A DNA stretch of 64,000 nucleotides, from the NCBI GenBank assembly GCA_009782605.1, contig WRIR01000002.1, forward strand, positions 1-64,000, written 5' to 3'. Each line of letters starts with the position of its first letter. Position 1 is the stretch's first letter. The notes under the pieces are model-generated. The model was not told the origin of the DNA. It saw only the letters and a list, made by a program, of their open reading frames with translations, and did not search any database. A program made the position numbers and the translations under genes. Shown one piece after another: positions 23,172-41,987 of the stretch. This DNA comes from Eggerthellaceae bacterium (GTDB lineage: Bacteria; Actinomycetota; Coriobacteriia; Coriobacteriales; Eggerthellaceae).

Positions 23172-24227
23172 TTACTTAGAACGCATGAGGACCTGTTTGA
23201 GCGCGGTGGGGGTTTCAAGCACCTTCAAGCATCCCATGACCACGTTGGTCAGGGAAGTCTCGCTCGTCCATACCGGTATCTCGAGCTTTTCGGTCAGATA
23301 GCGGTCAAGCCCCGAGAGCAGGCCTCCGCCGCCCGTCAGGAGTATGCCGTTTTGGATGATGTCGCTTGCCAGGTCAGGGTTCGTCTTCTTGAAGGTCTCT
23401 TTGATGTGGATCACCATCTCGTCGACGGGCACGCGCAGGGCCGTCCGCACATCCTCGGACTGGATGATGACTTCCTTGGGCTGCTCCGTGACAACGTCTT
23501 GCCCGGATATCGCCATGTCGCGCTCCCGGCCGTCCTCGAAGGGCAGGACCGAGCCTATCTTGATTTTGATGACCTCGGCGGTGCGCTCCCCTATCTTGAT
23601 GCCGAGGAGGTCGCGCAGGTGCATGGCGATAGCCTCGTCCATGCGGTTGCCCGCAAGGCGCAGCGACGATGAGGTCACGATGCCGCCGAGGGATATCACC
23701 GCCACCTCGGTCGTCCCGCCGCCGATGTCGACGACCATGGAGCCGGTCGGCTCTGTCACCGGCAGGTCGGCGCCCATGGCAGCAGCCATCGGCTCTTCGA
23801 TGAGGTAGGCCTGACGGGCTCCCGCCTGGATGGCCGCCTCGAACACCGCACGCTTCTCGACCGAGGTCGCCCCGCAGGGGATGCAGATGACGATGCGCGG
23901 CTTCGGCTGCCACGGGTAGCGGCGCGGGGCCGCCCGGTTGATGAAGGCCGAGAGCATGGCCTCGGTCACGTCGTAGTCGGCGATGACGCCGTCGCGCAGG
24001 GGATGCTCGGCGGAAAAGGCTTCGGGGGTGTGGTTTATCATGTTCTTCGCCTCGTGGCCGACAGCCAAAACGCGGTGGGTGCTTTTCTCTATAGCAACGA
24101 CAGAGGGCTCGTTGATAACGATGCCCCCGCCTGAGATGGCTACCAAAGTATTCGCAGTACCGAGGTCAATTGCCATATCGGATGACATTTGCCCTGAAGC
24201 ACCTGAAAACCTATCGAATATCGACAT
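23172..24227 (-). CDS. mreB: Rod shape-determining protein MreB
   Basis: MAIDLGTANTLVAISGGGIVINEPSVVAI, VDIGGGTTEVAVISLGG, LTGGGGLLSGLD. Confidence 0.95.
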   Translation of the reverse strand: MSIFDRFSGASGQMSSDMAIDLGTANTLVAISGGGIVINEPSVVAIEKSTHRVLAVGHEAKNMINHTPEAFSAEHPLRDGVIADYDVTEAMLSAFINRAAPRRYPWQPKPRIVICIPCGATSVEKRAVFEAAIQAGARQAYLIEEPMAAAMGADLPVTEPTGSMVVDIGGGTTEVAVISLGGIVTSSSLRLAGNRMDEAIAMHLRDLLGIKIGERTAEVIKIKIGSVLPFEDGRERDMAISGQDVVTEQPKEVIIQSEDVRTALRVPVDEMVIHIKETFKKTNPDLASDIIQNGILLTGGGGLLSGLDRYLTEKLEIPVWTSETSLTNVVMGCLKVLETPTALKQVLMRSK

Positions 24228-24385
24228 AAAAGGCTGACCCCTTTGTTTCTTAGACGTACAAACCGATATTCTATCACAGGGGCAAAAGCCATGCTGAAAA
24301 TCCACACGGGGTACACCAGCAATATCGCGTCAACCCTCCCCTTCTCGCCTTCCGGGTCCACGCCAGCCAGCTTCTTTAACCCCAC

Positions 24386-24546
24386 AGGTCCACGCCAGTC
24401 AGCGAGAGGCGCCCCCGTGCCCAAGATTGCGCCGCTATGCGGCCGAGCGTACTTCCGTACGCGAGGGAAAGCATAAAAGGCTCAAGATTGGGTGCGCGGG
24501 CGCCTCGCAGCGTCGAGCAGTTACGCTGATTGTAAATCAGCGTAAC
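24386..24546 (+). other. Structured intergenic element, copy 1 (closing stem, two internal hairpins, 3' hairpin)
   Basis: Stem 24406-24414/24498-24506 (GAGGCGCCC/GGGCGCCTC) continues as 24416-24424/24488-24496; hairpins 24431-24443 and 24447-24462; perfect 12-bp hairpin 24520-24531/24535-24546. Homologous to 41817-41978 on the opposite strand. Confidence 0.85.
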
Positions 24547-24549
24547 CCG

Positions 24550-25839
24550 TTAGTGGACGCTACAAGAGAAGCACGGGTCGTAAGCGCGGATGAGCTTTTC
24601 GACCTCAAGCTTGAGGGCGGCCTCGGCAATGCCCTCGCCGACAAGCTTCTCTGCCAGCTTGCGCACGTCGGCCTCGATGTTCGCGAGGTTTTGCGCGGTC
24701 GGGGTGAGGATGGAGGCATGGACGACCTTGCCCGCCTCGTCGATGGTCAGGTCGTGGAAGAGCGCTCCGCGGGGGGCCTCCGTAAAGCCCACGCCCCGCC
24801 CGGCCTTCACGCTGAAAGGCACGGGCTCGCTTGTGCCCGCATAGCCGTCGGCTGCAAGCCTGCGGCAGATGCCCGCACAGCGCTCAAGCGCGTCGACGAG
24901 CTCCACCGCCTGCGCGACGTTGTTCTTGAGCGGGTTGAGCTCCGGCGGCCGCAGCCCGGCCTTTGCCGCTGCCACCTTCGCGTTGGAGCTCAGGTGCTTC
25001 CAGGACGCATTGATGCGCGAAAGCGCCGTTGCCATATAGGGCCGCCCGGTCGCACGCGCCCGCGCGAAGAGGGCCGCGGAACGGTCAACGGCATACTCCT
25101 CGATGTTGTCGCCGATGTCGCCGGCCTCAAAGGTGAGGTCGGCCTGGAGGAAGCGTGCCGTGTCGGCGGTGATTATCGGGTAGTAGCCGTCCTGGACCAT
25201 GGCGAGCATGTCGCCGTCGGTTGAGATGTCGGTTATCGGGAAGCTGTTGAAGAGGTCGACCGCCTTCTCCATGAAGGGGAGCATCCCTTCCATCTTCCCC
25301 GCAAGCTCAAGGTATTCCTCGGGCGCTACCTCGTGGGTGAAGCCGCCAACGACCGCCGTTATCGGGTGGACGGAGCGCCCGCCGATGCGGGTGCACAGCT
25401 CGTTGCCGAGCGCCTTGACCTCAAGCGCCGAGTTGAGCAGCGCCGGGTCGCTTGCCGCCAGAGGGAAGATGTCGGGGGTACCGACAAAGTCCGGCGTCGC
25501 AAGCACAAAGAGGTGGGTCGCGTGGTTTTGCAGGTAGGAGCCGTATACCAGAAGCTCCCTGATAGCCTGGGTGCGTGCGCTCGGCTGGACGTCGAAGGCG
25601 CGCTCGATGGCCTTGAGGTCGGTCACGACATGGCTCGCGGAGCATATCCCGCAGATGCGCGACGAGATATAGGTGACCTCCGAGTAGTCGCGGCCGCGCA
25701 CCATGCTCTCGAAGAAGCGGGCGGGCTCGACCACCTGTATCTCGACCGTATCGACGGCCCCGTCGGCCACGACGACGCGGACGTTCCCGTGTCCCTCGAC
25801 GCGGGCGATATGGTCTATGTGAAGGGCGGTGTTCGTCAT
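24550..25839 (-). CDS. [NiFe] hydrogenase large (alpha) subunit, group 3b-like
   Basis: L1 motif RICGICSASH and L2 motif DPCFSCSVH; the protein ends exactly at the L2 histidine. Confidence 0.9.
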   Translation of the reverse strand: MTNTALHIDHIARVEGHGNVRVVVADGAVDTVEIQVVEPARFFESMVRGRDYSEVTYISSRICGICSASHVVTDLKAIERAFDVQPSARTQAIRELLVYGSYLQNHATHLFVLATPDFVGTPDIFPLAASDPALLNSALEVKALGNELCTRIGGRSVHPITAVVGGFTHEVAPEEYLELAGKMEGMLPFMEKAVDLFNSFPITDISTDGDMLAMVQDGYYPIITADTARFLQADLTFEAGDIGDNIEEYAVDRSAALFARARATGRPYMATALSRINASWKHLSSNAKVAAAKAGLRPPELNPLKNNVAQAVELVDALERCAGICRRLAADGYAGTSEPVPFSVKAGRGVGFTEAPRGALFHDLTIDEAGKVVHASILTPTAQNLANIEADVRKLAEKLVGEGIAEAALKLEVEKLIRAYDPCFSCSVH

Positions 25840-25846
25840 GGCGGTG

Positions 25847-26674
25847 CTAATCCTTTCCCTGCAGCAAAGGGTTCGTCTGATTGAAGAGCTCCAAAGCCGC
25901 GTCGAAGCCTTCGGCGGCAAGGCCATAGCGGACGACGGACTCCCGGGCCGACGCGAGGTTCGCCTCGGGAGAGATGCCGCGGCACCCGCTGCACGGGCGA
26001 CCGACTTTCACGCAGCGCGCCCCGCAGCCGGCACGGGTCACCAGGCCGAGGCAGAGCTCTTGCTGGGGGTAGAAGCAGCCCGTCTCGTTGCGCTTGCAGT
26101 CGCCGCACATGGTTTTTTCCGTGAGCGGGCGGTTGGAGCCGTAGAATGCCTTGCTCAGCACCTCAAGGAACTCGGAAGGGTCTATCGGGCAGCACGGCAC
26201 CTGGTAGTCCACCTCGATAACGCTCGTGACGCTGCGGGGAGCGATAAGGTCCCCGCACACGGAGGGGAGGGTGCTGTATACCTCGGCCGGGCGGCCGCAG
26301 AAGCCCTTCGCCGCGATGCCGGGGATGCCGGCCGTGTTGGCGCAGGCCCCCAAGGCGATGACCACCTGTGCCTTGGCGCGGAGTTCGGCCAACACCTGGA
26401 CCGACTCCTCGGTGGTGACGGCGCCCTCGATGATGGCGACGTCGAAGTCCTCGGGCATCGGGGCGCTTGAGAGAAGCTGCCAGTAGGTCAGGTCGAACTG
26501 CCCGAGCACCTCAAGGAGGTGCTTCTCGTTGTTCGTTATCTGGAGCTGGCAGCCAAAGCAGCTCGCCAGGCCGACGACCACCACGCGGGGCGTCCCGGAG
26601 CGCGGGCCCGCCTTGCGAAGGCCGGCGTCTGAGGGGCCGGCGCCCCTGTTGCCTTTGTTACCCATGCTCCCCAT
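25847..26674 (-). CDS. [NiFe] hydrogenase small (delta) subunit
   Basis: VVVVGLASCFGCQLQI, LGACANTAGIPG, multiple Cys in the C-terminal region. Confidence 0.88.
   Translation of the reverse strand: MGSMGNKGNRGAGPSDAGLRKAGPRSGTPRVVVVGLASCFGCQLQITNNEKHLLEVLGQFDLTYWQLLSSAPMPEDFDVAIIEGAVTTEESVQVLAELRAKAQVVIALGACANTAGIPGIAAKGFCGRPAEVYSTLPSVCGDLIAPRSVTSVIEVDYQVPCCPIDPSEFLEVLSKAFYGSNRPLTEKTMCGDCKRNETGCFYPQQELCLGLVTRAGCGARCVKVGRPCSGCRGISPEANLASARESVVRYGLAAEGFDAALELFNQTNPLLQGKD

Positions 26675-40418: not shown

Positions 40419-41987
<1,569 letters not shown>

Follow-up and report, generated by a model that had tools for sequence, protein, structure and literature searches.

The 64,000-nucleotide stretch of Eggerthellaceae DNA analyzed here (the window) carries two copies of a structured intergenic element, which align end to end over ∼161 nt at the places given in an earlier note made from the sequence alone. 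Copy 1 (24387–24546, positions 1–161 of the covariance model R1, 162.8 bits by cmsearch) has the + strand as its folded strand. On its 3′ side lies the gene for the large subunit of a NiFe hydrogenase (24550–25926, − strand; Pfam PF00374) and on its other side the MreB gene (23172–24305, − strand), the next gene in the same direction as the hydrogenase gene. The copy begins with an unpaired leader, GGTCCACGCCAGTCA (24387–24401), which in the alignments continues into AGTCAGCGAG, the 5′ motif best conserved across the family. It then comprises an irregular long hairpin, or rod, with a GC/GC closure and the apex GCGTAC-TTCC-GTACGC (24402–24511), whose main part (24406–24506) is built on the helix 24406–24424/24488–24506 with a 1x1 mismatch, and a perfect terminal hairpin of 12 bp (24520–24546), 3 nt from the stop codon of the hydrogenase gene on the opposite strand (24550); both helix and hairpin are present as the earlier note had drawn them. 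Upstream of copy 1 lies a second leader-like stretch, GGGTCCACGCCAGCCAGC (24353–24371, + strand), which from its sequence is possibly a relic of an earlier copy; leader-like remnants of this kind also lie ahead of the copies G000:C4:10645 and C7:100317. Copy 2 (41817–41976, model positions 1–161, 160.1 bits) has the − strand as its folded strand, with its main rod, from alignment and fold, at 41858–41957, and its terminal 12-bp hairpin at 41817–41844, 3 nt before the GTG start codon of obgE. This start codon (41811–41813) has no visible ribosome-binding site, unlike those of many relatives.

Both copies fold as RNA into structures far more stable than those of shuffled sequences, with z about −7.5 in each case. 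The folding energy is −87.9 kcal/mol for copy 1 compared to −58.3 for its shuffles (z −7.7), and −86.4 kcal/mol for copy 2 compared to −59.3 (z −7.4); for neither copy did any of 200 shuffles fold as well. Throughout the family the body is a single unbranched rod, with the 12-bp hairpin standing separately on its 3′ side. The rod begins with a GC closing pair, followed by 2 bp, a 1x1 mismatch, 16 bp, a GA/AG internal loop and 7 bp, and continues through short helices split by A/G-rich loops to an apical hairpin (GCGTAC/GTACGC in the window's genome). The branched fold that had been proposed, with a GCCGC-TAT-GCGGC hairpin, is not a family feature; that hairpin is not conserved, and its strand pairs further 3′ (with GCATA in copy 1).

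The fold of one strand is under selection, and changes between copies that keep pairing, as noticed earlier in copies 1 and 2, extend to nearly the whole structure. Among 12 copies from one genome, in a MAFFT alignment made independently of the covariance model, two-sided changes are found at 20 pairs, a number matched by no shuffle. In an alignment of 62 matches from named relatives, which was fitted to the covariance model and is therefore biased towards it, and which includes a few opposite-strand matches, 50 of 54 pairs have two-sided changes, and double changes fill 630 cells compared to 163±12 in shuffled alignments and at most 140 with the partners slid. Since G.U cells exceed A.C cells, by 406 to 85 in the rod (4.8 to 1) and by 37 to 22 in the terminal hairpin, the folded strand is the one named by the earlier note (the + strand for copy 1). 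Within the rod, a tandem UG/GU wobble is seen repeatedly in different genera. Tetraloops of the type cUUCGg, which would favor RNA over DNA, are present without being dominant (9 of 62, by a crude loop finder); the selected fold forms as RNA or as single-stranded DNA, and neither the G.U bias nor the cUUCGg loops separate the two.

Homologs abound, and the family, previously unnamed and composed of dispersed repeats of ∼160–180 bp, is far larger than the two copies seen at the outset. BLAST with copy 1 as the query turned up many further copies in the window's genome, and the covariance model R1, built from 12 copies, has 19 matches there, copies 1 and 2 among them. Within Eggerthellaceae, 105 of 140 genomes have matches, as do 36 of 48 genera; across the class the figure is 154 of 401 genomes, with members of other families of the order among them. 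Run on 399 genomes of the phylum, the same model found none outside Coriobacteriales. The hosts known by name are Gordonibacter, Paraeggerthella, Eggerthella sinensis, Adlercreutzia, Enterorhabdus, Enteroscipio and Collinsella, of which Collinsella, Gordonibacter and Adlercreutzia are common human gut bacteria. Six Collinsella-like genomes hold 31–44 copies each; the copy census of genome G263 covers 1.6 Mb of that genome. No viral contig (searched with exact patterns) and no phage carries the element, and among plasmids it occurs in a single 900-kb Collinsella record. No Rfam family matched above the curated threshold, in keeping with the earlier note's failure to recognize a named RNA, and at relaxed thresholds the matches found (eukaryotic microRNA models and the like) look like chance. 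We found no description of the family in the literature searched, a comparison that stopped short of the 3161 candidate RNAs from human microbiomes (2021, PMC8040213).

Several relatives and neighbors of the element differ from the common form. A long subfamily of ∼230 nt, in which extra hairpins replace the apex, occurs in two genera (L121:696–923 and L151:2895–3124). Three relatives (L354:5447, L359:2009 and L292:10864) have the rod only, without the CAGCG base and the terminal hairpin, and two of them lie directly 3′ of a hairpin resembling an intrinsic terminator. A separate dispersed palindrome, ∼GTGACAAG..TATACGGCCCCTTGTCAC, adjoins several copies in the window's genome on their upstream side (L058, L061, L063 and L064), and in Collinsella-like genomes another, AGTCATTGGGGACGTTCTTAA..AAGAACGTCCCCAATGACT, precedes several copies (L294 and its neighbors; G377 and G263). 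The idea that the terminal hairpin is a repeat in its own right was rejected, as few such hairpins are solitary and most belong to a copy.

The element is placed almost exactly, and in one orientation, at the 3′ ends of genes. With a simple GC3-based gene caller, used on 99 copies and then on 29, the gene on the hairpin side is on the opposite strand in 85 of 90 clean cases (85 versus 5); all gene calls are heuristic except in two RefSeq cases. Of those two, which are in a RefSeq-annotated record of Collinsella aerofaciens, one stops 4 nt short of lacB and the other 1 nt short of a hexose kinase gene. The distance from the stop codon to the base of the hairpin is 0–4 nt in 62 of 100 copies and about −2 to +7 nt in 75; many of the copies beyond this range have double hairpins, and distances near +50 come mostly from copies with a second hairpin. 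The 5′ side has no peak of stop-codon distances among the same 100 copies, and the neighbor there is either a convergent gene or the following gene in the operon, whose ribosome-binding site comes first. The adjoining gene end need not be that of a protein-coding gene, since tRNA-Glu, tRNA-Ala and RNase P RNA (rnpB) genes are also found in this position. The ends of the hairpin are mostly GTTACG...CGTAAC or GTTCCG...CGGAAC. Copy 1 obeys the rule, at 3 nt from the stop codon of the hydrogenase gene, and copy 2, which adjoins the start of obgE, is an exception to it. A leader of the downstream gene, which the earlier note suggested together with a structured ncRNA as one of two alternatives, was rejected for obgE: the window's obgE locus is the only one of 30 to be occupied, and the contexts of the family are gene 3′ ends, not leaders. 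Of the note's two alternatives, the better one is the other, that of a mobile element that is non-autonomous.

Presence of the element at a given site is polymorphic, and copying within lineages is evident. It is absent from the other 29 obgE loci, and at that of the sister genome G001 only GAACGGCGTAACC remains, which resembles one arm of the hairpin. Between two Collinsella-like genomes, orthologous sites are empty or hold a copy collapsed by internal deletion, so that the insertion-site polymorphism proposed as a check is found; in addition, different subfamilies occupy the same gene end in these two relatives, and one chimeric copy combines two subfamilies. Of 17 copies from the window's genome, 15 are closer to another copy there (up to 95% identical) than to any copy elsewhere, which points to amplification within lineages. 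Four solitary truncated copies keep the 3′ half, while none keeps only the 5′ half, although a short remnant consisting of leader only is present in the window's genome. Copies made up of the right half or of the hairpin alone are found after full copies, and full copies in any one genome have rather uniform 5′ ends. No target duplication is visible or definable at the empty orthologous sites. Some sites look common to different genera (L135/L151), as would be expected if copies were long retained or had a function, and less so from mobility alone.

Our search for a mobilizing enzyme, which looked at the co-occurrence of Y1 transposases and reverse transcriptases, found none that accounts for the element. 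Genes for Y1 transposases, the link to REP-associated enzymes suggested as a check, are present in 74 of 140 genomes and do not track the element: many copies without Y1 are found in G003, G005, G006, G055, G056, G066 and G069, and G084 has eight Y1 matches without the element. The window's genome has two Y1 transposase genes of RAYT size (G000:C4:8829–9164 and C4:96965–97297), which are unlinked to the element in their distribution. Reverse transcriptase (PF00078) is found neither in the window's genome nor in the complete genomes G055, G066, G069 and G263, which have many copies, and complete genomes with at least 20 copies include ones with neither Y1 nor reverse transcriptase genes.

We consider it probable that the element is a non-autonomous mobile repeat, or at least one that is copied and dispersed, in which one folded strand is selected. 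One strand, as RNA or single-stranded DNA, would fold into the long rod with its conserved internal loops and the 12-bp terminal hairpin; this fold may be recognized by a protein acting in trans; and a new copy would land so that its hairpin end meets the 3′ end of a gene already in place, with its folded strand antisense to that gene. Copying would start at the 3′ end of the element, as suggested by the truncated copies, which keep that end. We infer that the exact placement stems from insertion and not from later selection. Counted against mobility are the lack of a mobilizing enzyme and of a target duplication, the sites that span genera, the exception of copy 2, and the possibility that selection, not insertion, made the placement so strict. 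A stronger version, which we put forward as a tentative possibility, is that the element represents a new class of bacterial mobile element, copied by way of a folded single strand, placed by its 3′ hairpin antisense at gene 3′ ends, and served by an enzyme unrelated to known Y1 transposases and reverse transcriptases.

The alternative that survives best takes selection as the source of the placement, and we regard it as rather unlikely. The element would have a putative cis-acting function at the borders of genes, as a fail-safe or a structured antisense RNA that stops or processes transcription entering the 3′ end of the gene from the opposite side, with copies spread by gene conversion and kept by selection. 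The fixed antisense orientation, the adjacency to ORF, tRNA and rnpB ends alike, the selection on the folded strand, and the occupation of one site by different subfamilies in relatives would all be expected of such an element, but many sites are polymorphic and many copies lie within operons without known antisense transcription. Moreover, no promoter or U-tract is evident, the intrinsic terminators that were seen fall outside the element, and the terminal hairpin is followed by no U-run, the flanking sequence not being T-rich, and so lacks the mark of an intrinsic terminator. Quite improbable, in our assessment, is a retrotransposed RNA whose copying begins at its 3′ hairpin and is primed from the end of a gene. 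Target priming of this kind would give the exact 3′ ends and fixed orientation that are observed, as well as the 5′ truncations (four solitary copies to none, with right-half and hairpin-only copies behind full ones), and the G.U bias fits an RNA; against this, the 5′ ends of full copies vary little within a genome, and the genomes named above lack PF00078. Hairpins of the REP/BIME type moved by a Y1 (RAYT) transposase are very improbable, for although the element consists of multi-copy extragenic hairpins and the window's genome has its two Y1 genes, the Y1 distribution largely contradicts this reading, and the length, rod and fixed orientation differ from those of REPs. The question raised is what recognizes a gene end, be it that of a protein, tRNA or RNase P RNA gene, and either places a folded element at that end or maintains it in this position.

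Comparison with known repeats finds likeness mainly in location. Like REP/BIME sequences with RAYT, the element is extragenic, multi-copy and hairpin-forming and lies often behind stop codons and inside operons. However, REP units are hairpins of 20–40 nt, often in both orientations, whereas the element is ∼160 nt long with a conserved irregular rod and one orientation to the adjoining gene, and Y1 is missing from complete genomes with at least 20 copies. Retroelements differ in a similar way, as several complete genomes with many copies have no reverse transcriptase. MITEs are likewise short, non-coding, dispersed and polymorphic, but the element has neither terminal inverted repeats (its ends are a leader and a hairpin) nor a target duplication, and no parent transposon was found. 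Integron attC sites share variable stems kept complementary, one folded strand and a position behind a gene, but the element lacks the GTTRRRY/RYYYAAC core boxes and adjoins ordinary core genes, not cassettes. ERIC and BOX are also intergenic imperfect palindromes of ∼100–200 bp, and BOX, like the element, has a repeatable module; their sequences and lineages are different, and to our knowledge a fixed relation to a gene end has not been described for them. The MIRUs of mycobacteria were reportedly described by Supply and colleagues in 1997 as intergenic repeats in operons, at stop codons and in fixed orientation, and we know of no covarying fold in them. Compared with this description, the element has the same intercistronic placement, but is also found outside operons, between convergent genes and at tRNA and rnpB ends. 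In location, then, the element works somewhat like MIRU, ERIC or REP repeats, yet falls outside REP/RAYT and MITE elements on the features above. Clear selected structure is usually absent from abundant extragenic repeats; here, one family is present throughout the order, shows exceptional covariation, folds in a strand-specific way and is placed almost exactly where genes end.
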